NCBI RefSeq assembly: GCF_002188635.1
Contig: NZ_NINX01000007.1
Span: 1 to 64,000, forward strand
DNA: 64,000 bases
Origin: Pigmentiphaga sp. NML030171
Lineage (GTDB): Bacteria; Pseudomonadota; Gammaproteobacteria; Burkholderiales; Burkholderiaceae_B
Reading direction: 5' to 3'
The notes beneath the pieces were generated by a model. The model worked only from the letters and a program-made list of their open reading frames with translations, was not told the origin of the DNA and searched no databases. This document shows positions 1 through 10,867 of this stretch, one piece after another (within the stretch, counting starts at the first letter, position 1; every line of letters begins with the position of its first letter). The position numbers were made by a program, and so were the translations under genes.

Positions 1-66
1 CTGTTCCGCCAGCCTCACCGCCTCGCGCTTGAACTCGTCCGTGAAATGTCTTCTGTTTCGTGCCAT
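1..66 (-). CDS. IS3-family transposase OrfA, N-terminal part (cut by window edge)
   Basis: The 22 visible residues begin MARNRRHFTDEFKREAV and continue RLAEQ. This is the usual opening of IS3/IS911-type OrfA proteins, a helix-turn-helix DNA-binding protein (the FTxEFKREAVRL pattern). The start ATG is at 66-64, preceded by a purine-rich GGAGAGCGAAGCG that can serve as ribosome binding site. In this family OrfA is joined to the DDE transposase OrfB by a programmed frameshift; that part lies outside the window. The assignment rests on a short but characteristic segment. Confidence 0.75.
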   Translation of the reverse strand, partial: MARNRRHFTDEFKREAVRLAEQ

Positions 67-131
67 CGCTTCGCTCTCCAGGCATGATCATGCCATCTGA
101 TCTGTCCGGAGTAACGGGGCAAGCCCAGACA
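1..131 (-). mobile_element. 5' end of an IS3-type insertion sequence
   Basis: A transposase OrfA reading frame enters from the left edge on the minus strand. Its upstream flank reads, on the minus strand from about 131, TGTCTGGGCTTGCCCCG followed by a CCGGACAG stretch. A start in TG with an internal TCCGGACA block looks like IS3-family terminal inverted repeats. The other end is outside the window, so neither the inverted repeat nor a target duplication can be confirmed. The boundary at 131 is an estimate. Confidence 0.45.
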
Positions 132-502
132 GCATGATCGACGGTATTCCGGGCTGTGGTGCGCGTCGAGATTTTGAGCGCTACATCTTGTTTGTCGCCT
201 CATCATTCCCTAAACTGTTCCCTCAGCGCCCCGACTTTTGAGAAGGTCCAATATCCATGCTGGTTTACGCCCCTTTTGGGATCGTGCCCCAGCCACCACG
301 AATTTGATGCCCAGCCTTTTGGCTGGGCATTTTCATTTGTGCAGCAGACTTTGACGAAAGCCTAACCACACGTCCCAAGTCGTCCCGCTACTTTCACGTT
401 TGCCCGAACCTTGGGTTGTACCAGCTATCGCCAACGCGTCATGTAACCAACGTGATATATAAAGAACGGCAAGCGGCATACAAAAAAACCTGAGGAAGAG
501 GC
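132..502. other. Intergenic region with no supported gene
   Basis: About 370 bases between the insertion-sequence end and the DUF4236 gene. It contains a strong hairpin (307-330) and otherwise no open frame that resembles a protein. The GCCCCAGCCACCAC stretch near 291 loosely recalls a tRNA or tmRNA 3' end, but no acceptor or T-stem partner can be found. Confidence 0.5.
307..337 (+). terminator. Rho-independent terminator hairpin
   Basis: A perfect 10-bp inverted repeat, ATGCCCAGCC and GGCTGGGCAT, with a TTTT loop is followed by TTTCATTTG. The stem is GC-rich and a short T tract follows on the plus strand, as for an intrinsic terminator. No intact gene ends just upstream, so it may be left over from a gene displaced or lost at this boundary. 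Confidence 0.6.
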
Positions 503-1687
503 ATGGCGCTACGCTTTCGGCGGTCCATCAAACTGGCACCCGGCGTCCGCATGAATGTCAGTGGATCCGGCGTGAGTTGGACGCTCGGGCCTCGCGGCGC
601 GACGGTTGGCATCGGCAAGCGAGGCACCCGTTTGAATACGAGCTTCATGGGGCTTTCTTCCAGCCAAATCCTTTCTCGCCCTCTTCCCCGTCCCCGACAA
701 GCCGCGCCACCTGCACTGTCCGCACCAACCCGGTCTATCCCGTTGACTTGCTCGGTGGACGACGACGGCGTCCTATCCTTCCAGGACGAGCACGGTAACA
801 CTCTGGACGATGCCCTGGTCGAGATTGCCAAGAAGCAAAATCGCGCTGCGGTCCTCGGGCTTATTCAACGCAAATGCGACCAGATCAACGGGGAATTGGA
901 CGGGTTGGCGACCATTCATCTTCACACGCCTTCTCCCCATACGCCTCCGCGCTTCCACCCTGAATCCTATTCGGAGCCGACGCCGACGGCGCCGATGCCG
1001 CCTCGGCCACGTTGGTGGGAAAAGTTTCTGTCCAAACGCTTGGCGAAGCTGGACGCGCTTTACCAGCAGGCGCTTGCCGAGCACCAGGTCCGAGTAGAGT
1101 CCTGGCAAAGGGAAAAGGCTAAACACGAACAGGAGCAGGCAGCTAAGCAGCGCTTGATCGAGGAAGGCATCTATACCGATACGGTAGCGATGGAGTGCTG
1201 GCTGGAGGCGAATCTTCAAGAGATCGCTTGGCCACGTGAAACCTTGGTCGCCTTGGAAATTGCCGACGAAGGGCGCCATATTTTATTGGACGTAGACTTG
1301 CCGGAAATCGAGGACATGCCCGCTAAGCTCGCGGCTGTACCGACCCGTGGTTTGAGGCTTTCAGTTAAAGAGCTACCCTCTGCTCAGGTCCGCAAGCGCT
1401 ATATGGCGCATGTTCACGGCATCGCTTTTCGGTTGATCGGCGAAACCTTCGCGGCTCTGCCAATCGTCCAGCGCATCACGCTATCAGGTTTCTCCCAGCG
1501 CAATGACCCTGCCACGGGACAGCTCCGGAACGATTATCTATATTCGGTCTTGGTGGATAGAGAGGCATGGTCGCATATCGATTTCGCACAACTCACCGCG
1601 ATTGACGTCGTAGAAGCCCTGGGTAGATTCGAATTGCGACGACAGATGAGCAAAACGGGCATTTTCAAACCGATCGAACCGCTTTGA
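503..1687 (+). CDS. DUF4236 domain protein, function unknown
   Basis: The 394-residue protein opens with a DUF4236 domain (about residues 1-52; motifs FRRSIKLAPGVRMNVSGSG and TVGIGKRG). That short domain is found in bacterial proteins of unknown role. A proline-rich linker (about 150-175) follows, then a charged helical stretch (about 185-225, many K, E and Q) and a C-terminal half that I do not recognise. No signal peptide or membrane segment is seen. The start at 503 has a good AGGAAGAGG ribosome binding site. The gene stands alone between an insertion-sequence end and unrelated genes, and its composition is lower in GC than the rest of the window, so it may be accessory DNA. Confidence 0.8.
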   Translation: MALRFRRSIKLAPGVRMNVSGSGVSWTLGPRGATVGIGKRGTRLNTSFMGLSSSQILSRPLPRPRQAAPPALSAPTRSIPLTCSVDDDGVLSFQDEHGNTLDDALVEIAKKQNRAAVLGLIQRKCDQINGELDGLATIHLHTPSPHTPPRFHPESYSEPTPTAPMPPRPRWWEKFLSKRLAKLDALYQQALAEHQVRVESWQREKAKHEQEQAAKQRLIEEGIYTDTVAMECWLEANLQEIAWPRETLVALEIADEGRHILLDVDLPEIEDMPAKLAAVPTRGLRLSVKELPSAQVRKRYMAHVHGIAFRLIGETFAALPIVQRITLSGFSQRNDPATGQLRNDYLYSVLVDREAWSHIDFAQLTAIDVVEALGRFELRRQMSKTGIFKPIEPL

Positions 1688-1750
1688 TTTATCCCAGCAT
1701 TCCTTGTGGAATGAGAGCTTTGCCATTCCGTGGCCGATTGGGAGAGAGCA

Positions 1751-2158
1751 ATGAAAGTACACGGTCAATGCCATTGCGGCGCGATCCGCTACGAGGCCGA
1801 GGTCCAGCCTGGATCGATGCGGGTTTGTCATTGTTTGGACTGCCAGATCATGTCGGGTTCGGCGTTCCGCACGAACATTCCCGCGCCGGCCGAGACGTTC
1901 CGGTTGCTGCAAGGCAAGCCGCGCCACTATGTGAAGACCGCCGACAGCGGCGCGCAGCGGGTCACCGGTTTTTGCGAGCAGTGCGGCACGCAACTCTACG
2001 CGACCGATCCGGGTACGCCGAAGCGCTATTCGCTGCGGGTCGGCACCCTGGCGCAGCGCGACCAGGTGGGCGGTCCGCAGGCGCAGATCTGGACGCGCCG
2101 CCGTGTCGGCTGGATGCCGCCGCTCGAAGGCGTTGATGAGGTCGACGGGCAGCCGTAG
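1751..2158 (+). CDS. GFA-family zinc-binding protein
   Basis: Member of the glutathione-dependent formaldehyde-activating (GFA, Mss4-like fold) family. The cysteine pattern is complete: CHCG near residue 7, CHCLDCQ near 28-34 and CEQCGTQL near 77. These are the residues that bind two zinc ions in the founding enzyme, S-(hydroxymethyl)glutathione synthase. Most family members have no proven substrate, so only a generic assignment is justified. The start at 1751 is chosen because GGAGAGAGCA sits just upstream; an in-frame ATG at 1730 would add seven residues outside the domain. Length (135 residues) is typical. No functional link to its neighbours is apparent. Confidence 0.85.
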   Translation: MKVHGQCHCGAIRYEAEVQPGSMRVCHCLDCQIMSGSAFRTNIPAPAETFRLLQGKPRHYVKTADSGAQRVTGFCEQCGTQLYATDPGTPKRYSLRVGTLAQRDQVGGPQAQIWTRRRVGWMPPLEGVDEVDGQP

Positions 2159-2210
2159 CCGTGCCGTTAGGCTGAATTTTCCCGCGCTTCGGTGCCTTGG
2201 GGGGCAAGGT

Positions 2211-2474
2211 TCAGGTGGACTCGTCCGAATCAAGCCGCAGCAGCCGTCTGGCATTACCACTCTCGATCGCCCTGCGGTCTTCCGGTAACAGTTCGAGCCT
2301 ATCCATCTGCTCCACCGCATGCCGCAACGGGAACCGGTCGTAGTCGCTGCCGAACAGGATCTGGCTGACGGGGACCCGGCTCATGAGTAGCGCCATCTGT
2401 TCCGGCGAGTAGGCCTGCGCGCACTCGAAGTACAAGTGGCGGAACTCCGCCGTGATGCCTTCGGGAAACAGTTC
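2211..2474 (-). pseudogene. C-terminal remnant of an amidohydrolase-2 family protein
   Basis: Read leftward, the sequence encodes ELFPEGITAEFRHLYFECAQ, then VPVSQILFGSDY and ESGNARRLL. This is the C-terminal third of an amidohydrolase family 2 (ACMSD/decarboxylase-type) TIM-barrel enzyme, including the SQILFGxD active-site strand. Homology stops abruptly at about 2474, where the opposite strand begins to encode the tail of a different enzyme. The N-terminal two thirds, with the first metal ligands, are missing, so the fragment cannot be functional. Confidence 0.7.
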
Positions 2475-2870
2475 GGCCTGGCGGCCGATCCCGGCACCCT
2501 GTACCTGGTCCGGCCAGACCACAACGTCGCGGCGCGCTGGAAACGACCGGACCTTCGCCGCGTGCGGGAGCCAGTGAACCGCCTCGTTCTGAAGGAGACG
2601 GTGAACCGCGAGCCGACCTTGCCGCGGCCGGCGCTCAGCGCGACGGAGCGGGTGTACAACAGTTTGGGCGAACTGCTGGACCGCACGCAGAACAAGCTGG
2701 AAATACTGACGGCCCTGGCGCTGCGGCTAGGCGTGGACTTGAGTGACGCCGAGGCTTTCGAGCGGGCGGTGCAGGCGATAGAGGCCGCGCAGGAGGCGCG
2801 GCAGCATGCGATGCCGCAGGCCGACGAGGCCATCGGCATTCCGGTCAACGGATTGGACGCCTTGCCTTGA
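2475..2870 (+). pseudogene. C-terminal remnant of an FAD-dependent monooxygenase
   Basis: The frame opens with ADPGTLYLVRPDHNVAARWK, the typical C-terminal LVRPDxxVAxRW motif of flavin aromatic hydroxylases of the MhpA/PheA type. It continues to a stop at 2870 through a helical tail (YNSLGELLDRTQNKLEIL) that I do not recognise. The catalytic and FAD-binding parts are absent. The break at about 2475 coincides with the break in the amidohydrolase remnant on the other strand, so one deletion between two formerly divergent genes would explain both. No start codon or ribosome binding site is convincing. Confidence 0.55.
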
Positions 2871-3663
2871 AGGCCCCGGGTCGCGAGTCGCTGCTGCGCA
2901 CGCAGGAGCGCCTTGGCGGCGGGCGTGTCGGTGCTCGACCCCACTTATCATATCCATCGACTGTCGTGATCCGAAGGGAATCCGGCTGGAACTTCCCTGG
3001 CCTAAGATCGATTGTCGCTACCTCGAGCAGACCGTCGGCAGGCGCATGTCAAGTTGCGGCAATGGGCGTTGCGTGACAAAACGCCGTTGCATACCGCATA
3101 TGCGCAGCCTGGACCCGGTACGGCATGAAGTAAAGTGGAGAACCTGCTTGATCGATGTCACTGTGAAGTAATGGCGCCAGCTCGATGAAACGCATGATGC
3201 CCTAAAGCGCAGTCAGGTCGATGTTCTCACCATGTCGGCTGAAGTGGCACAAAGTCAACGTGGTCATCGGGTTTCCTGTCGATCGACGGCTGGTACCCGA
3301 AATCGAAGCTCTCCAGTCCTTTGATGAACGGGAGCTTGGGCCAACGAGGTCCGCATGGTGAGCATATAGATGAGCTGGTGCTGCGTCACTTGGCGCTGCA
3401 GCCACCGCCCAAACGCGTTCGGTGGAAAGGCCTTTGCCTGTCGAAAGAAGGTGCAGCCGAAAACGGGCTAAGTAGCAGTCGAGAGGTAGATGAGGAAACG
3501 CGTCTACCTTGATTTGTTGCCTCAACCCGCACCGAGAGAATTTCTTGATTGGGCGGCAGGGTTTTTCCCCGCTCTTGGAAGGTGGGGAAAACCCGAGACA
3601 TCGATTGTTACAAAATGCGTAAAATTGCCTCGCCAAATGCGCCGATAGCGCAGGGGGGCGGGG
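2871..3663. other. Non-coding or decayed region upstream of the nucleotide cassette
   Basis: Almost 800 bases with only short open frames, none resembling a known protein. It contains an imperfect palindrome at 3559-3594 about 70 bases before the next gene, and otherwise nothing I can support. The composition is more AT-rich than the flanking chromosome-like DNA. Confidence 0.5.
3559..3594. promoter_or_regulatory. Imperfect palindrome upstream of the cassette
   Basis: The arms GGGTTTTTCCCC and GGGGAAAACCC face each other across a 13-base spacer, with one T unpaired. The element lies 69 bases before the first gene of the three-gene cassette. It could be an operator or a transcript hairpin. 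No T tract follows directly, so a terminator is less likely. Confidence 0.4.
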
Positions 3664-4572
3664 ATGCCAACTACATCGGACCGCAAAGACCGTGGCCGGA
3701 AGCCGGTTCGTACGTTCGCCGACTACCAAGCCATGGTCGAACGAACCGACGAGCGCAAGAAGGTCATCGTATCCCTACTTGGTTTGGCTGGCGAGCTCGG
3801 GGACCTCAATTCGACCTTCAAGAAACTGGTGCTGCAACGTGACAGCCAAACGCTTCGCGGAGACCTTCGAGAGGAAATCGGCGACATCCTCTGGTATCTG
3901 ACCAGCCTTGCCGTCCTCCATAAAATTCCTCTGCAAGAGGTGGCACGAGAGAGCGCGCGCAAGGCGGAACGACTTTATTCGCAGGGCGAGGTGAACCGTT
4001 TCGACGACGGCTTTGATCACGAAGAGCGCCTGCCACGGCAGTTCAGCGTCACGTTCTCGGAGAAGCGAAACGGCAAGCAATTGTTGGTTCGCATTATGGT
4101 CAGCGGCGTTATCGTCGGCGACACCCTAACCGACAACGCCCATAAGGGGGATGGCTACCGATATCACGACGTATTCCATTTAGCCTACGCCGCGGTACTT
4201 GGCTGGTCTCCGGTGGTCCGGCGTCTCTTGCGGCGCAAGCGTAGGAGTGACCCGCGCATCGACGAAATTGAAGACGGTGGCCGTGCGGTAGTGGTCGAAG
4301 AGGCTATCTCTGCGCTCGTCTTTAACGAAGCGCCGCAGCGAGCCTGGTACAGCGAAGAGAGTTCAGTCGACATCGGCCTGCTCAAGACCATCATTCGCCT
4401 TACCGCTGGATTGGAAGTCCATCGCTGTACTGCGAAACAGTGGAAGGCCGCTATCCTACAGGGCTACTCGGCGTTCAAGCAGTTGAAGGATCACTGCGGT
4501 GGTCGCATTGATGTGGACCTCGACCGGCAGACCTTGACCTATCACCCGCCACAAACCGTCGAGGATTCGTAG
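3664..4572 (+). CDS. MazG-type nucleotide pyrophosphohydrolase with extra C-terminal domain
   Basis: The N-terminal part (about residues 35-105) carries the all-alpha NTP pyrophosphatase signature: GELGD at 43-47, then EEIGDILWYL with E71 and D74. These acidic residues bind Mg2+ in MazG-like enzymes, which hydrolyse (d)NTPs to monophosphates and pyrophosphate. The 302-residue protein is far longer than a single MazG domain. Residues about 120-302 form a second region with YRYHDVFHLAYAAVLGW and EEAISALVF; I believe this occurs in other MazG-like proteins but know no function for it. The start is preceded by AGGGGGGCGGGG. Its stop TAG overlaps the GTG start of the next gene by one base, so the two are translationally coupled. 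Confidence 0.8.
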   Translation: MPTTSDRKDRGRKPVRTFADYQAMVERTDERKKVIVSLLGLAGELGDLNSTFKKLVLQRDSQTLRGDLREEIGDILWYLTSLAVLHKIPLQEVARESARKAERLYSQGEVNRFDDGFDHEERLPRQFSVTFSEKRNGKQLLVRIMVSGVIVGDTLTDNAHKGDGYRYHDVFHLAYAAVLGWSPVVRRLLRRKRRSDPRIDEIEDGGRAVVVEEAISALVFNEAPQRAWYSEESSVDIGLLKTIIRLTAGLEVHRCTAKQWKAAILQGYSAFKQLKDHCGGRIDVDLDRQTLTYHPPQTVEDS

Positions 4573-5279
4573 TGATTGCGCACAACGTTGTCGGCATCAC
4601 GCCGCTGGACGCCTGGCGCGAGGGTGTTCAAACCCTTCTCACCAGGGGCGAGTTCTTTAACCTTTTCACGACTGTCGAACAGCCGGCCGCGTTCGACCTT
4701 TCGTGGCTTCAGACTCATTCGCCGCGACGAAGGGGAAGTGGCCGCGATGATCTGCGGGAGGTCATCAAGACCATCTTCCCGTATGATCTCGCACAACGCA
4801 CGACGGATCGGCAGGATCTCTACAACGAATACTTGCGTTGCCATGATCGAGCAATGAGGTTCGTTCGCAACCGTGGAACATGGGGGACGTATTTCGAGCG
4901 GCTCGTGCGCTTCCCCGGACATCCCGAGACCAATCAACTTGAAACTGTTATCGGCAAGCTCTGCACTTGGCCAAGACGAAGCGGGACCAGCTTGGTATTT
5001 CATCTGTCGACACCGGTCTGCGATACTCCCCGTACTCGCGGAGGGCCATGTTGGCACTTCGGTGAAATAATCTGGCACCCGGGCAACCGTCTTGATTTGG
5101 TGGTGGTCTATCGCAACCACGATTTCTTCAACAAGGCTCTCGGTAACTTTATTGGCCTAGGCCAGCTTCTTAATTTCATATGTGCCGCCTCGGGCAAGAC
5201 GCCCGGGCGCTTGTTGTGCCACTCGGTGCACGCCTACAACGGTGGCGGGACTGAAGCACTGCGTGCCTTGGCGGCTTGA
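4572..5279 (+). CDS. Thymidylate-synthase-like protein
   Basis: The C-terminal half of this 235-residue protein matches the thymidylate synthase/dCMP hydroxymethylase fold. C160 in RGGPCWHFGEI sits where ThyA has its PPCH nucleophile. The following YRNHDFFNKALGNF gives R181, D184, F186 and N192 at the same mutual spacing as R166, D169, F171 and N177 of E. coli ThyA (from memory). HSVHAY (H220, Y222) matches the HxY motif. The N-terminal half is divergent, and ThyA is somewhat longer (264). Known family members methylate dUMP or hydroxymethylate dUMP or dCMP; which of these applies here, if any, cannot be said. The GTG start overlaps the previous stop, and the third cassette gene follows after 3 bases. 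Confidence 0.7.
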   Translation: MIAHNVVGITPLDAWREGVQTLLTRGEFFNLFTTVEQPAAFDLSWLQTHSPRRRGSGRDDLREVIKTIFPYDLAQRTTDRQDLYNEYLRCHDRAMRFVRNRGTWGTYFERLVRFPGHPETNQLETVIGKLCTWPRRSGTSLVFHLSTPVCDTPRTRGGPCWHFGEIIWHPGNRLDLVVVYRNHDFFNKALGNFIGLGQLLNFICAASGKTPGRLLCHSVHAYNGGGTEALRALAA

Positions 5280-5282
5280 ACG

Positions 5283-6389
5283 ATGATGGCGACTAGGCAA
5301 CAGTTTGTTGACCTTGTACGTCGCGTGAAGGCGTGCAAGCGGTGCCCGCGCATGGCAGATAGCGCGCGCGTTTTCGGCGCAGGATGTGGTTCGCTCAGCG
5401 CCAAGGTGATGTTCATCGGCGAAGCCCCTGGGCGACTCGGAGCCGATGCTTCGGAGCTTCCGTTTCACGGCGATAAGTCCGGCCACAACTTCGAGTCGCT
5501 GCTGGAGCAAGTGGGGCTGAGCCGCTACGATGCCTTTGTGACCAACGCCGTGTTGTGCAATCCGAAGGACGAGAATGGTAATAACGCTACGCCCACGCCA
5601 TCAGAGGTGGCCAACTGCGCCTCATTCCTGAAAGAGCAACTGGATCTTGTGGACGCTCCTGTGGTTGTGACATTGGGCGCGGTTGCCTTGCGGGCTGCTG
5701 CACTTGTCACGGCTCATACACTTACGCTCAAAGATAGCGTGCGGAAGGTCCATCTCTGGGCCGGGCGCCAACTTATTCCGGCCTACCACCCGGGCCAGCG
5801 TGCCATGGTCCATCGCAGCTTTGCCAACCAACTGGCGGACTACCAGTTCATTGCTGAGGCTGTGCGTCGAGGCAGTGGTGGTTCCGCGCGGCGGAAACCA
5901 TCAACCAAGCTAAGCCGGGCGTCGGAGAAAGTTGGTGCCGCTGCCCGGGTACTACTCGAGGAAAGCGGCGAGCTGAGTTACTTCGCCCTGCACAAGCTAT
6001 TGTTCATGGCCGAGGTTCGGCATCTCGAAGCTTCTTCGGAGCGCCTCACGGAGGGCTACTATGTGCGACAGAAAGATGGACCCTACTGCGTCGAGCTTCA
6101 TGCCAGTCGGCTGACTGCGCTCATTCCGGGCTGCTTCACTCGCACTGTCGGCAGGCAACTGATGGTGTCGCTCCGTCAGGATGTCCTGTTTGGCGTTACA
6201 TCGCAAGCCGATATACTCCCCCCGGCTGCAAGACGCATCTTGTCGGAGGTGGCGGGCAAGTACGGCCACCTGCCGGCCGGGAAGCTAAAGACCGCGATTT
6301 ATTTGACGGCTCCCATGCGTGAAGTAATGCGCAAAGAGAAGACGCTAAGGATGAACCTGTTCAACAGCGCGGTGCTTCCACCACCTTGA
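5283..6389 (+). CDS. Uracil-DNA glycosylase family (4/5) protein fused to a C-terminal domain
   Basis: Residues about 8-195 form a family 4/5 uracil-DNA glycosylase domain. C18 and C21 (CKRCP), C92 and C112 are placed like the 4Fe-4S ligands; GEAPG (46-50) is motif 1, TPTPSEVANC is the second-cysteine region, and YHPGQ (168-172) is the HP motif. Such enzymes excise uracil or deaminated bases from DNA. After a basic linker (about 200-210), residues 211-368 form a separate domain with LHKLLFMAEVRHL and YVRQKDGPY. These resemble Panacea/DUF4065 proteins, many of which are antitoxin-linked, but this is a by-eye match only. It is the last gene of the MazG/TS/UDG cassette. Confidence 0.75.
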   Translation: MMATRQQFVDLVRRVKACKRCPRMADSARVFGAGCGSLSAKVMFIGEAPGRLGADASELPFHGDKSGHNFESLLEQVGLSRYDAFVTNAVLCNPKDENGNNATPTPSEVANCASFLKEQLDLVDAPVVVTLGAVALRAAALVTAHTLTLKDSVRKVHLWAGRQLIPAYHPGQRAMVHRSFANQLADYQFIAEAVRRGSGGSARRKPSTKLSRASEKVGAAARVLLEESGELSYFALHKLLFMAEVRHLEASSERLTEGYYVRQKDGPYCVELHASRLTALIPGCFTRTVGRQLMVSLRQDVLFGVTSQADILPPAARRILSEVAGKYGHLPAGKLKTAIYLTAPMREVMRKEKTLRMNLFNSAVLPPP

Positions 6390-7167
6390 GCCACCAAGCC
6401 GAAATAGGCGCGAAAGCAAATGGCCTACTGGTCTGTAATGTATCTGGTTGAACCGCCTATGCCCACAATATGACGCCTCCAATCTTGTCGAGGCGCTGCG
6501 TATGGTGTCGAGCACGCCGAACATTTAGATGTTCACCTATGAGGAAGTCGCCGAGCGCGTTCGCTGCGTTCAAGAGGTTCGAGCCAGACGGTGCGGCGGA
6601 ATGCGGTCCGTAAGCTCGTTGAGTTAATTCTTGCGTAAGACCGAAATTCCGCCTGGGGAACACCGGTACAGCGTCCAACACCGCGGCATTATGCAATACG
6701 GCATTTGTTACCGGCTTGCCGAGGTCGCACTGCCGCTGAGCGACGATAACCATATCCAGGGGCTACTGCGCCGGATGGCGAGCAACATCATGCTGCCCGC
6801 CGATCGTAAGCAGTTTTAGGCAAGGGTGCATTGTAGGAGATCGTGCTGCTGGCTCATTTTGCCAAAGCCTGAATTGCCGCCCGATTTGAGGACCTGTTGG
6901 ACATCGTGGCTACGTCAGACGACGAAGACTATCCGTTCGCTTGCAATAAGGTGTGGATCGAGAACGGCGTCAAAGCTCACATCCGCAAAGCAGGTCAGCA
7001 ACACTGACTCTGCAAGCATTCTTCGATCTCTTCCCAGCACCAAGATTTTCCAGCAATGCCAGCGGTGCTTTGAAACCGGCATAAAGCCTTGGCTCTGCAA
7101 GGTTCGTGTACGTGCAGGGCGTTGCACCAGGAAGCGCGTCAATAACGACAGCCGTCGAACTTTCACC
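6390..7167. other. Region without an intact gene at the right edge of the accessory segment
   Basis: Some 780 bases with no intact gene. A 44-codon stretch at 6873-7007 looks like former coding sequence (DLLDIVATSDDEDYPFAC, then VWIENGVKAH), but in-frame stops precede it at 6834 and 6870, so it is probably a decayed fragment. Composition changes to the high-GC chromosomal type as the LysR gene at 7168 begins. Confidence 0.5.
6873..7007 (+). pseudogene. Short decayed coding fragment, origin unknown
   Basis: The frame encodes acidic, protein-like sequence (FEDLLDIVATSDDEDYP, then ACNKVWIENGVKAHIRK) and ends in TGA. It is interrupted upstream by stops at 6870 and 6834 and has no start or ribosome binding site. 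I do not recognise the family. It is listed because its amino-acid composition looks coding while its surroundings do not. Confidence 0.3.
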
Positions 7168-8073
7168 CTATCTTCGCAGCGGAGCGAGCAGGTCGGACAG
7201 GAAGTCGAGCAACGCCCGGGTCTTGGCAGGCAACAACTGGGAGGTCGTCACTGCGTAGACAGGCAGGCTGGTGGCGCTCCAATCGGAAAGCACGGGAACC
7301 AGCCGGCCAGCCTCGACTTCGGGAATGGCGAAAACGTCGGCCATGACGGCAATGCCATTTCCCGCCACGGCCAGATTGCGGATGAAGCCCACGTTATTGG
7401 CTGCCGCGCGACCCCGTACTTCGACTTCCACGGAGCGTCGAGAGGCCCGCAACGTCCAACGCCGCTCGATCTGGTCGGAACCCCGTTCGCTGCGAAGCAC
7501 GCACTGGTGCTTCGTCAGGTCCTGCGGGTTGCGCGGATGACCGAAGCGGGCAAGGTAGTCGGGAGAGGCATACAGCCGCCTGGGCAAGTCGCCCAGGCGC
7601 CGGATGACAAGCGATGAATCGGGAAGCTCTCCCATGCGCACCGTGACGTCATACCGCTCCGCAAGCGGATCCATCCACTTGGGAGTGAAGTGCAGGTCCA
7701 GCGTGACGTCGGGGTACCGATCGAGAAATTCCCGCACCTTGTCTGCGGTGAGGCGGACCGTGAAATCGATGGGAGCCGCGATGCGCAAGGGGCCATTGGG
7801 CCGGGACGGCGCCGTCTGCGCCAGCTGCGTTGCCATGGCGATTTCATTCATCCCCCGGCTGCATTGTTCGAAGTAGCGCTGTCCCTCTTCCGTCAGCACC
7901 AGCGTCCGGGTGGTGCGATTGATCAATTTGATGCCCAGCTCTTTCTCCAGCGCGGCAATGCTGCGGGAGGTAGACGACTTCGGCATTTCCAGCGCGTTCG
8001 CCGCCGCCGTGAAGCTGCCCGTTTTCGCGACCTCGAGGAAAACGCGGACGTGATGAATCAGGTGGGGTTTCAT
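7168..8073 (-). CDS. LysR-family transcriptional regulator
   Basis: A typical 301-residue LysR protein. The N-terminal winged helix-turn-helix (about 5-64) carries the SFTAAANALEMPKSSTSRSI recognition region and the NRTTRTLVLTEEG wing. A co-inducer-binding domain of the CrgA/DsdC-like subgroup follows (from about 90, GPLRIAAPIDFTVRL). It is divergent from the esterase/Bug/monooxygenase operon starting at 8220 and probably controls it. A perfect-armed inverted repeat lies 11-32 bases upstream of its start codon and would suit autoregulation. The inducer is unknown. Confidence 0.92.
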   Translation of the reverse strand: MKPHLIHHVRVFLEVAKTGSFTAAANALEMPKSSTSRSIAALEKELGIKLINRTTRTLVLTEEGQRYFEQCSRGMNEIAMATQLAQTAPSRPNGPLRIAAPIDFTVRLTADKVREFLDRYPDVTLDLHFTPKWMDPLAERYDVTVRMGELPDSSLVIRRLGDLPRRLYASPDYLARFGHPRNPQDLTKHQCVLRSERGSDQIERRWTLRASRRSVEVEVRGRAAANNVGFIRNLAVAGNGIAVMADVFAIPEVEAGRLVPVLSDWSATSLPVYAVTTSQLLPAKTRALLDFLSDLLAPLRR

Positions 8074-8083
8074 GACGATCTTG

Positions 8084-8105
8084 ATTGTTCCTTGTTGGGA
8101 ACAAT
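8084..8105. promoter_or_regulatory. Inverted repeat, probable LysR operator
   Basis: The arms ATTGTTCC and GGAACAAT flank a 6-base spacer (TTGTTG) in the 146-base intergenic space between the divergent LysR and esterase genes. LysR proteins bind such interrupted palindromes. Its position right before the regulator's start fits autorepression. Confidence 0.55.
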
Positions 8106-8219
8106 GTTATCCGGAAAAGCTATTTGTGGAACGAACCGGCCTCAATAGAATGGCTGCGGCGTAACGATCCGGTGCCTGTACGGCCTTGAGAGATCACCGC
8201 CCAAGAACAAGGAGACAGC

Positions 8220-9857
8220 ATGTTCGAAGAGCAACTTGTCCGCGTACTGGCGATTTCCGCCTTGCTGGGCTTGATGGGGATAGCGGGTTGCGGAGGAGAC
8301 GGCAGTGCGCCGGCCGCCGCGCCGGCAGAGACTTTCGCGGCCGCCACCAGCTGTGAAAGCCTCCGGAGCCTTCGGCTTCAGAACGTCGAGATCACCGCCG
8401 CCCAGGCCGTGCCTGCGGGGACTTACCAACCGGCTGGAAGCACCTCGGCTTTCGGCAACCTTCCCGCATTCTGCAGGGTGACCGCCAGTCTGGCGCCGGT
8501 ACCGGGGTCCAGGATCGGCGTCGAGCTATGGCTGCCCGCTGCGTCGTGGAATGGCCGGTACCAGCAGTTGGGGCAGAACGGCTGGGGCACGGCGTTCTCA
8601 TCCTACTGGGGCTCGATGGCGCCTCATCTCCGGAACGGCTACGCCATCGCCATCACCGACGGAGGGCACGCCGCGACCGCCGTCACCGATGCCACGTGGG
8701 CGATCGGCTTTCCGGAGCGCATCGTTGATTTCGCGTATCGCGCCACGCATGAGACGGCGGTCGCGTCCAAGGCGATCATCAAGGGGTTCTATGGGAAGTC
8801 CGCGGTCTACTCCTATTTCAATGGCGCTTCGACCGGGGGCAGAGATGGCCTGATGTCGGCGCAGAAATTCCCGACGGACTTCAATGGCGTGCTTGCCGGC
8901 TCGGCGCTGATCAACTGGACCCGCGTGGCGACGCAGAAGCTCTACGCGAGTCAACAGTTGCTGAAGGCCGGGATCCAGGGCGCGGCGGGCGCCTCCTTGC
9001 TGGATCTGGCAAGGAAATCGGCCATCGCCGCGTGCGATGCCGACGACGGCATTTCCGACGGCATCTTGCGGGATCCGCGCTCCTGCCGATGGGATCCTCA
9101 CGCGCTTCTGTGCCATGCCGGCCAAGACTCATCGAGCTGCCTGACCAGCCTGCAAGCCGATGCGCTGACGACAGTCCTGTCCCCGTTGCGCGACCCGGTC
9201 ACGCTCGAATATCTGTACCCGGGGTACCTGCATGGGTTCGAAAACGACTGGACAGGGTTTGGCTACGTGAATGGCACGCCTGCACACGCGGCCACGGTCT
9301 ACAAGATCGCGCTGGGGCAGCCCGATTGGGATGCTTCCACGTTCGACGTTCACTCTGACCTGCCCCTGGTCGAGGCCACGCTCGGCTTCATGAACGCCGA
9401 CCAGCAGGCTGACTTGAGCGCGTTCAGGCAGGCCGGGGGCAAGCTCATCCAGTATCACGGCTGGCAAGACGCGGTGACGATGCCGGAACGCATCGTCCAG
9501 TACTACGAGGAGGTCCGGAACCGCACGACAGGTGGCGACCTTGCCGCGGAGCAAAGCTTCTATCGCCTGTTCATGATGTCAGGGGTCGGGCACGGAGGCG
9601 CCGGCGAAGGTGCGTGGCACTTCGGGGCGATTGCGCAGCAGGCCGTGGCGGGCGATGCCGAACATGACGCCGTCCTGGCACTGCGCAATTGGGTGGAGAA
9701 GGGTGCCGCGCCAGAAAAATTCGTTGCGACGAAGTTCCAGGACGGCGACGTCACCAAGCCGGTGATGTTGCAGCGCCTGATGTGTCCGTACCCCCGTCAG
9801 GCTGTCTACAGGGGCAGTGGCGAAACGCAGTCGGCCGACAGCTTCTACTGCGGCTAG
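8220..9857 (+). CDS. Tannase/feruloyl-esterase family lipoprotein
   Basis: A 545-residue alpha/beta hydrolase of the tannase/feruloyl esterase family, which hydrolyses esters of gallic or hydroxycinnamic acids. A lipoprotein signal ends in LMGIAGC (C24), so the enzyme is probably anchored in the periplasm or outer membrane. The nucleophile elbow is GASTGG (S204), with Asp in YHGWQDAV and His in GVGHGG completing the triad. Fungal and bacterial relatives have a Cys before the Ser and another after the His joined by a disulfide (CS-D-HC); here both are replaced, by A and G. It starts after AAGGAGACAGC. Context with a Bug receptor and an aromatic-type monooxygenase suggests degradation of an aromatic ester. 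Confidence 0.85.
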   Translation: MFEEQLVRVLAISALLGLMGIAGCGGDGSAPAAAPAETFAAATSCESLRSLRLQNVEITAAQAVPAGTYQPAGSTSAFGNLPAFCRVTASLAPVPGSRIGVELWLPAASWNGRYQQLGQNGWGTAFSSYWGSMAPHLRNGYAIAITDGGHAATAVTDATWAIGFPERIVDFAYRATHETAVASKAIIKGFYGKSAVYSYFNGASTGGRDGLMSAQKFPTDFNGVLAGSALINWTRVATQKLYASQQLLKAGIQGAAGASLLDLARKSAIAACDADDGISDGILRDPRSCRWDPHALLCHAGQDSSSCLTSLQADALTTVLSPLRDPVTLEYLYPGYLHGFENDWTGFGYVNGTPAHAATVYKIALGQPDWDASTFDVHSDLPLVEATLGFMNADQQADLSAFRQAGGKLIQYHGWQDAVTMPERIVQYYEEVRNRTTGGDLAAEQSFYRLFMMSGVGHGGAGEGAWHFGAIAQQAVAGDAEHDAVLALRNWVEKGAAPEKFVATKFQDGDVTKPVMLQRLMCPYPRQAVYRGSGETQSADSFYCG

Positions 9858-9901
9858 ACCGGGGATCGTCCGTATTCATCAACTTTTCAGGGCATAGGCA
9901 A

Positions 9902-10867
9902 ATGATAAAGAGACGAACATTCCTGGGCATGTCCTCGCTGTTGGCCGTCCCGCTGATCTCGCGCGCGAATGATTACCCGCGGATGCCGATCAACCTGGTG
10001 ACCCCGCTCGCGGCGGGGGATGCCGCGGACCGCGCGGCGCGCCTGATCGGGCAGGAACTCTCGAAGTTGCTGGGCGTTGCCGTCACGGTCATGAACCGCC
10101 CGGGCGCCGGCGGTTCGCTGGGGACCCAAGCCGTCATCCGGGCGCCCAAGGATGGATATACCTTGCTCTACGCACAGAACAGCCCGCTGACCATCCGGCG
10201 CGTGATCGATCCCGAGGCGGCCAACTACGATCCATTGACGGACCTGACGCCACTGGCGCTGACGACCAGAAGCCCGTCGGTACTGGTGGTCCATAAAGAC
10301 GCGCCTTTCAAGACCATCAAGGAAATGGTCGACCTCGCACGACAGCGTTCCGGCGGCATCAACATCGGGAATGCCGGACCCGGATCCGTCGGCGAGATAA
10401 GCGTCCAGTTGATGAATGCGGCGGTGGGCGCGCCGTTGAACTCGGTGAACTACAAGGGCGCGGCGCCCGCCGTGACCGACCTGCTCGGCGGCTACATCGA
10501 TGCGGTGATCCTTGCGCTGGGCGCCGTAAGCGCCCATATCCGCAGCGGATCGTTGCGCGCTTTGGCGATCTCGTCGCCGTTCCCGGATTTCCCCGCCATC
10601 CCGACGCTGCGCAAGCTCGGATACAACGCCGATCTCCTGGGCGTATGGTTCGGCTTTTTCATGCCCGCCGGCGTTCCCGGGCACGTCATCGACACCTTGC
10701 TTCCCGCGCTGGAACAGGCGGCACGCAGCCCCGCCATCTCGGCGCAATTGCTTCCATCGGGCATGACGCAGGAATGGGGATCCCGCCAGGCGCTGGCCGA
10801 GGAAATTGCCACCGAGTATCGATCCATCAAGGAGCTGCTCGGTCCCACTTCAAAGAACGGAAAATGA
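9902..10867 (+). CDS. Bug-family periplasmic solute receptor
   Basis: Member of the Bug/TctC family of tripartite tricarboxylate transporter receptors (321 residues), which bind carboxylates in the periplasm. The N-terminus KRRTFLG resembles a twin-arginine signal, and mature sequence begins near DYPRMPINLVTP. Family landmarks are NRPGAGGSLGTQAVIRAPKDGYTLLY (seen in two parts), NYKGAAPAV and LRALAISS. The usual AAGG ligand loop reads LAAGDAADRAAR, an uncommon variant. No TctA/TctB membrane genes are nearby, as is common for Bug proteins. It sits 44 bases after the esterase gene and 10 bases before the monooxygenase, so one operon is likely. Confidence 0.9.
   Translation: MIKRRTFLGMSSLLAVPLISRANDYPRMPINLVTPLAAGDAADRAARLIGQELSKLLGVAVTVMNRPGAGGSLGTQAVIRAPKDGYTLLYAQNSPLTIRRVIDPEAANYDPLTDLTPLALTTRSPSVLVVHKDAPFKTIKEMVDLARQRSGGINIGNAGPGSVGEISVQLMNAAVGAPLNSVNYKGAAPAVTDLLGGYIDAVILALGAVSAHIRSGSLRALAISSPFPDFPAIPTLRKLGYNADLLGVWFGFFMPAGVPGHVIDTLLPALEQAARSPAISAQLLPSGMTQEWGSRQALAEEIATEYRSIKELLGPTSKNGK

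Follow-up and report, generated by a model that had tools for sequence, protein, structure and literature searches.

A possible deoxyuridine-analogue conflict cassette of MazG, thymidylate-synthase-like and uracil-DNA glycosylase-Panacea proteins in a Pigmentiphaga genomic island

The stretch of DNA analysed here, referred to as the window, comprises the first 64 kb of contig 24 in the 5.86-Mb genome of Pigmentiphaga sp. NML030171. Near its start, three open reading frames (ORFs) on the same strand encode a MazG-type protein (P0001), a thymidylate synthase (TS)-like protein (P0002) and an Fe-S-type uracil-DNA glycosylase (UDG) fusion protein (P0003), with a 1-base overlap between the first two and a 3-base gap before the third (Table 1). 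The original prediction, made from the DNA letters alone, had named these protein types and their tight packing; the packing was found again in the ORF coordinates, and profile matches agreed with the identities. The cassette is probably a little-studied type of defence against viruses or rival DNA, and comparison of gene content places it as the minimal branch within a broader, sparse and largely mobile family.

Profile analysis of P0001 revealed a MazG domain (PF03819, 23.9 bits against a cut-off of 22) followed by a MazG_C domain (PF18722, 271.5 bits). Orthologues in four of the related loci described below (L042-L045) are 42-46% identical to it, and alignment of 22 sequences identified D163, Y165, R166, H168, D169, H172, E212 and E213 as invariant MazG_C columns, possibly a second metal or nucleotide site.

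P0002 had no match in Pfam, PF00303 (ThyA) included. The methanogen-type TS model TIGR03283 matched with an E value of 3.8e-11, its score of 42.9 bits being far under the equivalog cut-off of 174.55, and 22 of the 23 PDB matches to the P0002 family profile were TSs, each weak alone (E 0.046-0.49). By these comparisons P0002 is placed in the TS superfamily, nearest the methanogen TS model. Cys160 aligns with the position that we take to be the TS nucleophile, and Asn192 with a residue of Lactobacillus casei TS that is presumably, in numbering and role, the pyrimidine (uracil)-reading Asn; the residue mapping comes from one weak HMMER alignment. With roles so assumed, the Asn192 alignment suggests that the enzyme may act on dUMP.

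In P0003, four Cys residues of the Fe-S type are invariant in all five aligned proteins, C18 and C21 lying just upstream of the UDG domain and C92 and C112 inside it, and the best PDB matches of the UDG were to UDG TM0511 (1vk2/1l9g). The protein thus resembles family-4 UDG/UdgX in its superfamily, its four Cys and its best structural match, and differs in scoring 90.3 bits against TIGR00758, which has a cut-off of 125.3 bits, and in carrying a fused Panacea domain. The Panacea match is just under the PF13274 cut-off of 25.7 bits; the same model matched all five aligned UDG-Panacea proteins, the window's included, at E values of 0.01 or less (best 1.7e-6), and the Panacea domain of a further locus, L164, was matched by an in-house profile only. 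In all 10 pairings of the five proteins, the UDG half is the better conserved and the Panacea half the faster to diverge.

Table 1 Features of the cassette and its island in the window.
Feature	Position	Strand	Basis
Accessory island, ~4,365 bp	2801..7165	none	Empty site in two congeneric genomes; lower GC
Gene 1, MazG + MazG_C protein P0001, 302 aa	3664..4572	+	PF03819 and PF18722, over cut-off
MazG_C domain	3991..4551	+	PF18722, residues 110-296
Gene 2, TS-like protein P0002, 235 aa, GTG start	4572..5279	+	TIGR03283, family alignments, PDB TS matches
Codon of Cys160	5049..5051	+	Aligns with TS nucleophile (role assumed); invariant 31/31
Codon of Asn192	5145..5147	+	Aligns with L. casei TS Asn; invariant 31/31
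Gene 3, UDG + C-terminal Panacea-like domain, P0003, 368 aa	5283..6389	+	PF03167, PF13274, NCBIfam, alignment
UDG domain	5388..5819	+	PF03167, residues 36-179, 89.6 bits
SocA-like Panacea domain	5988..6290	+	PF13274, residues 236-336, 24.0 bits

The cassette lies on an accessory island. In two congeneric genomes (G195:C33 and G191:C1) the alignment with the window runs to position 2800 and resumes at 7166, with 39-40 bp between, and the GC content is 56-59% over 3001-7000 versus 63-73% in 1-kb steps beyond 9 kb, with the sole exception of 59.4% at 54-55 kb. The lower-GC accessory DNA that had been described from the letters was thereby borne out. An insertion-sequence end had also been claimed, with which a repeat at the contig edge is consistent: window positions 1-130 are repeated in five further contigs of the assembly, two of which have the repeat at their first base. 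This repeat is probably a mobile-element end where the assembly broke, so that genes to the left of the window start are unseen. An Rfam search of window 1-10000 added nothing, nor did promoter and terminator scans, which came out near the shuffled expectation; a plasmid collection searched with window 1-9900 contained no near match, and E. coli had no match at the DNA level.

The family is rare. Within the genus, the TS-like gene was found in 1 genome out of 11. Counting the window's own genome each time, the TS-like family was found in 2 of 268 genomes of the taxonomic family, in 4 of 399 of the order, in 3 (strong) and 1 (weak) of 369 of the class, and in 4 (strong) and 18 (weak) of 398 of the phylum. 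In the 18 phylum genomes the weak matches (L145-L163) are single genes coding for ~500 aa, in which one region weakly resembles TS (34-55 bits). They look like members of another TS-like family, so far uncharacterised; these genes and that of the one class genome were excluded from all counts. A housekeeping role as replacement or backup of thyA or ung would suit the domains, which are those of housekeeping enzymes. The loss of the normal chromosomal copies that would go with such a role was not seen: P0002, with no PF00303 match, is not the sole TS of the genome, since one canonical ThyA is encoded elsewhere, and the six UDG-superfamily matches of the host comprise P0003 and five others; no search was made for a housekeeping mazG. 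Because the host keeps these enzymes, the cassette does not replace them, and in view also of the empty sites and the occurrence in 1 of 11 genus genomes this explanation was rejected as extremely improbable.

The original prediction had also asked whether the three genes recur together in this order. They do so, tightly packed, in five further loci (L042-L045, and L164 in genome G642 of the same order), which together with the window are termed type A. The six type-A TS proteins form one clade (support 100/100). Comparisons among L042, L043 and L044 gave saturated synonymous divergence (0.82-0.90 per site) and nonsynonymous differences of 0.09-0.25 in all three genes, so the cassette genes have been kept working by purifying selection; the shared order in five loci together with this disparity argues for more than a chance arrangement. 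In-house profiles detected no acyl carrier protein (ACP), ImmA, C1 peptidase, dCTP deaminase (DCD), second ThyA, thymidylate kinase or HMUDK_hel in the six loci. A helix-turn-helix (HTH) gene lies near L043 on the opposite strand. The two Bradyrhizobium loci, L043 and L044, seem to occupy the same chromosomal neighbourhood, with an rluD-like and an rpoD-like gene (names assigned by eye), which suggests an insertion hotspot.

A genome collection searched for the TS-like family yielded at least 189 relatives; the best 80, L042-L045 among them, were kept. The degenerate search patterns miss the window's own GNF motif, so the counts of relatives and of viral contigs are lower bounds. Genes were called as mechanical ORFs with in-house profiles, and contig ends explain some apparently missing genes; L001-L007, L021-L031 and L124 were dropped as short duplicates before counting, and L143-L163 and L172-L177 are outside the resulting count of 103 TS loci. 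A search of 50,697 phage records with the TS-like protein gave no match and at least two viral contigs were found; a phage origin of the gene was rejected.

The gene set of the wider family is ACP, HTH, ImmA, in some loci a C1 peptidase, and TS, together with MazG and either UDG or HMUDK_hel. Many proteobacteria (18 plasmid records and the genome scan) carry ACP-HTH-ImmA-C1-TS with UDG-MazG on the other strand, and in most proteobacterial relatives TS and the regulators share one strand and UDG-MazG is convergent. Actinobacteria, a cyanobacterium and others combine ACP-HTH-ImmA-TS with HMUDK_hel and MazG. A haloarchaeal plasmid (L014) encodes ACP, HTH, ImmA, C1 peptidase, TS, HMUDK_hel, thymidylate kinase and a phosphopantetheinyl transferase (PPTase), with no MazG in the stretch, and in L176 a row of same-strand genes encodes ACP, HTH, ImmA, TS, HMUDK_hel, MazG, ThyA and DCD. 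Eleven of the 18 plasmid matches are on plasmids typed as conjugative. The ACP assignment follows record annotation and an invariant Asp-Ser, as at the phosphopantetheine site, in 13 of 13 aligned proteins, since the Pfam PP-binding model scored below cut-off for L013 and did not match L016. Accessory genes are less frequent: AcpS in 5 and PPTase in 1 of the 103 TS loci, dCTP deaminase in 8, a second ThyA in 6, and thymidylate kinase in 4, with one more fused to HMUDK_hel in L110 (4161-5852). Where present, dCTP deaminase, the second ThyA and thymidylate kinase hint at a link with deoxyuridine.

HMUDK_hel (PF18723), the helical domain of 5-hydroxymethyldeoxyuridine (5hmdU) DNA kinases, was confirmed with Pfam in L013, L014 and L110. 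Across the 103 TS loci, 74 have UDG, 24 have HMUDK_hel, 5 have neither and none has both (70, 22, 5 and 0 among the first 97). Many sphingomonad loci are near-copies, and representative sets were therefore compared: at 90% identity the 66 representatives gave 43, 18, 5 and 0, and at 50% identity the 26 representatives gave 11, 12, 3 and 0. On the TS tree, with rows having neither gene left out, this distribution requires four exchanges, or three without the long-branch archaeal row L014, so the swap happened more than once. Such repeated exchange suggests that UDG and HMUDK_hel probably act on the same kind of DNA base, and this base is probably uracil-like, because HMUDK_hel takes its name from phage 5-hydroxymethyluracil (hmU) chemistry and its alternative partner is a uracil glycosylase. 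In the window's own genus, L041 (genome G194) encodes TIR, Nmad2, a TylF-like methyltransferase, HMUDK_hel and MazG, the UDG being replaced and the methyltransferase added, and in L064 (10784-12760) the alignment shows HMUDK_hel, MazG and MazG_C fused in one protein. A possible identity of HMUDK_hel as an HhH-GPD glycosylase, suspected from motifs, was dropped after profile comparison gave no support and a PDB search no credible match. Homologues of HMUDK_hel occur in 490 phage records, 77 of them with coverage of 80% or more, and some among the matches listed are annotated as P-loop nucleotide kinase or thymine pyrophosphorylase.

These observations bear on the main rival explanation, the removal of a foreign modified thymine by the same enzymes. 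All three proteins would clear one unusual pyrimidine such as 5-hydroxymethyl-dU, as a defence against hypermodified phages: MazG would hydrolyse the triphosphate, the TS-like enzyme would revert or divert the monophosphate, and UDG-Panacea would excise the base from phage DNA. Both MazG and UDG are well known as sanitising enzymes, alternation of UDG with HMUDK_hel would be in keeping with recognition of a uracil- or hmU-type base in DNA, and HMUDK_hel relatives are common in the phage records. To our knowledge, however, there is no precedent for a TS-family enzyme that acts in removal, and the thymidylate kinase and dCTP deaminase of some relatives point to the making of a dU-type nucleotide. 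Base-excising restriction enzymes are known, as far as the available part of that source goes (PMC10273834). We regard clearance as a real possibility, improbable as it stands.

The wider family differs from type A in its regulatory genes. The available part of the NetFlax account describes ImmA as a hub antitoxin domain and names Panacea systems as the largest group (PMC10440598). In the window branch Panacea occurs without ImmA (found in 0 of 6 type-A loci), and none of the 91 TS loci with ImmA has a UDG-Panacea fusion; by gene content, Panacea stands in the place held by HTH and ImmA in the relatives. Among these 91 loci, all 75 with a C1 peptidase have a C-terminal I42 chagasin domain on ImmA and none of the 16 without the peptidase does, as judged with an I42 profile built from one Pfam-confirmed seed (L016, ImmA at 6126-7148) and one iteration. 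Chagasins inhibit papain-type peptidases, so ImmA-I42 is probably the inhibitor of the accompanying C1 peptidase, and the pair likely forms a bacterial protease-inhibitor switch. Known toxin-antitoxin systems share parts of this arrangement. HTH and ImmA are common to the relatives and RosmerTA, which has an ImmA antitoxin, and type-A loci lack ImmA; Panacea toxin-antitoxin systems have a likely counterpart in the Panacea-like domain of the window branch, which is fused to UDG in all six type-A loci and is not a separate paired antitoxin gene. Unlike in either system, the partners here are nucleotide enzymes.

The immune context was examined through MazG_C, for which the taxonomic family has 11 loci, spread over 10 of 268 genomes; in all 11, the window included, it adjoins UDG (10) or HMUDK_hel (1). 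All eight MazG-UDG loci without TS (L032-L038 and L040, in seven genomes) are TIR-Nmad2-MazG/MazG_C-UDG operons. In L032, Pfam identified ThsB_TIR and Nmad2, with SLOG, a second TIR and SLOG-patatin genes alongside. Among TS loci, L110 has TIR and Nmad2 beside MazG, and the TS systems of L063 and L087 include Nmad2. These operons resemble the window in that a MazG_C protein is followed directly by UDG; unlike the window, they have no TS-like gene, its place being taken by TIR and Nmad2, and their UDG lacks Panacea. Thoeris has a counterpart in the relatives only, in their ThsB-type TIR; no search was made for ThsA. The guess of a defence role in the original prediction is made likelier by these relatives, the antitoxin-type domains and the domains listed by DefensePredictor, while no immune gene (TIR, Nmad, SLOG) was seen alongside the window cassette.

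The same operons bear on a role as an addiction module of mobile DNA, in which the TS-like product would be the poison, MazG and UDG the antidote, and Panacea or HTH-ImmA the control, so that loss of the element kills the cell. Such a module would explain the opposed strands of TS with its regulators and UDG-MazG in most proteobacterial relatives, and it would agree with the plasmid location of some relatives and with their antitoxin-type domains. The window genes, however, all run in one direction as a likely operon, and the existence of TIR-Nmad2-MazG-UDG operons without TS implies that MazG-UDG is not merely an antidote to the TS product. We therefore judge an addiction module decidedly unlikely.

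No described system joining these three proteins was known to the original prediction. In the literature searched, of which coverage was partial, neither the exact trio nor the TS/ACP/ImmA/C1 family turned up; the class to which they belong had been partly predicted earlier. DefensePredictor names MazG, MazG-C and a nucleotide-modification-associated domain in defence systems that are predicted but unvalidated, and the legend to the same figure includes UDG, so that the MazG/MazG-C/UDG/NMAD systems share domains with the window cassette; thymidylate synthase is among the domains of its phage-validated systems (PMC13092281, the part available). That validated TS-containing system could be a relative of the present family. 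The available part of the account mentions no TS-like/ACP/ImmA/C1 family and no UDG-Panacea fusion, and it cites as ref. 59 a bioinformatic precursor, Burroughs et al. 2015, which could already describe part of the family. The nucleotide-centric MazG_C/UDG conflict class is thus already predicted in print as defence, and the window trio is a variant of it. Absent from the original prediction were the Panacea domain of P0003, the wider family, the alternation of UDG with HMUDK_hel and the pairing of ImmA-I42 with C1.

A further comparison is with the phage pathways of 5hmdU-based thymidine hypermodification, some details of which are taken here as general background. These pathways resemble the present family in using a TS-superfamily enzyme, a nucleotide kinase, HMUDK_hel homologues and the logic of a dNTP hydrolase (PMC6449724, the part available). 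They differ in that the present family lies on plasmids and islands with antitoxin-type regulators and in that the window version has UDG with no HMUDK_hel alongside. By analogy, plasmids and islands might hypermodify their own DNA as a mark or for protection; UDG or HMUDK_hel would act on the base once it is incorporated, and the window cassette would be a reduced version. The fullest relatives do parallel the phage pathway (TS-family enzyme, kinase, dNTP hydrolase, deaminase and HMUDK_hel), and the conjugative plasmids among the matches would fit. Beside the window version, however, there is no kinase or HMUDK_hel, a UDG would destroy such a base and not finish it, and antitoxin-type regulators and TIR partners suit immunity better, so we consider hypermodification unlikely.

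Our best reading, advanced tentatively and at rather less than an even chance, is that the cassette is a gated, self-contained deoxyuridine-analogue conflict system, most likely anti-phage or anti-plasmid. In this pathway, MazG/MazG_C, whose family function is known, would hydrolyse dTTP and/or dUTP as presumed substrates to monophosphates, starving DNA synthesis of dTTP and supplying dUMP. The TS-like enzyme, through its conserved Cys, would add a C5 substituent to dUMP or divert dUMP from dTMP, followed by entry of uracil or a putative 5-modified uracil into DNA during replication. The divergent four-Cys UDG would then excise the altered base, its presumed target, leaving lethal abasic sites and breaks where replication is most active, in the DNA of the invader. 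Finally, the fused Panacea domain, an antitoxin domain elsewhere, may hold the set inactive until infection; in relatives the gate would be HTH and ImmA, in many cases joined by the C1 peptidase and the I42 domain that likely inhibits it. Making is favoured over removing by the dCTP deaminase and thymidylate kinase of a minority of relatives, of which L176 is the clearest. In a more specific and doubtful form, a false thymine made by the cell would be built into replicating DNA and then excised, giving a programmed thymineless-type death, immune or addictive, held by Panacea in the window and by an HTH-ImmA-I42/papain-type peptidase gate with ACP in the wider branch.

Several results weigh against this conflict cassette. 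The TS match of P0002 is remote and its PDB matches weak; hhalign against the host ThyA was not significant and did not reproduce the Asn192 alignment; and of 11 aligned proteins only 2 have the Asp, presumably a folate contact, that follows a conserved Arg in canonical TS. The dU-pathway accessory genes occur in a minority of relatives, and the profiles found no thymidylate kinase, DCD or HMUDK_hel in type-A loci. A scan of the window genome for HMUDK_hel gave no match, the controls also being without one. PADLOC models did not match the three window proteins, and in the type-A flanks, judged mostly by eye, the sole defence-type gene identified is a reverse transcriptase at L043. Panacea is fused, not a separate antitoxin, and is just below cut-off in the window. 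MazG and UDG are ordinary sanitising families, which leaves room for removal of an odd nucleotide, and the UDG may not accept a 5-modified base.

If the deoxyuridine-analogue conflict cassette is real, TS chemistry, dNTP hydrolysis and base excision would be joined in one switchable cassette of ~2.7 kb, a compact test bed for a class that is mostly predicted. New enzymes that make or remove modified thymines would serve as DNA-labelling tools. For the family as a whole, the ImmA-I42/C1 pairing suggests a bacterial papain-chagasin switch, and the repeated exchange of UDG and HMUDK_hel is an unusually direct clue to a uracil-type DNA base as the target.

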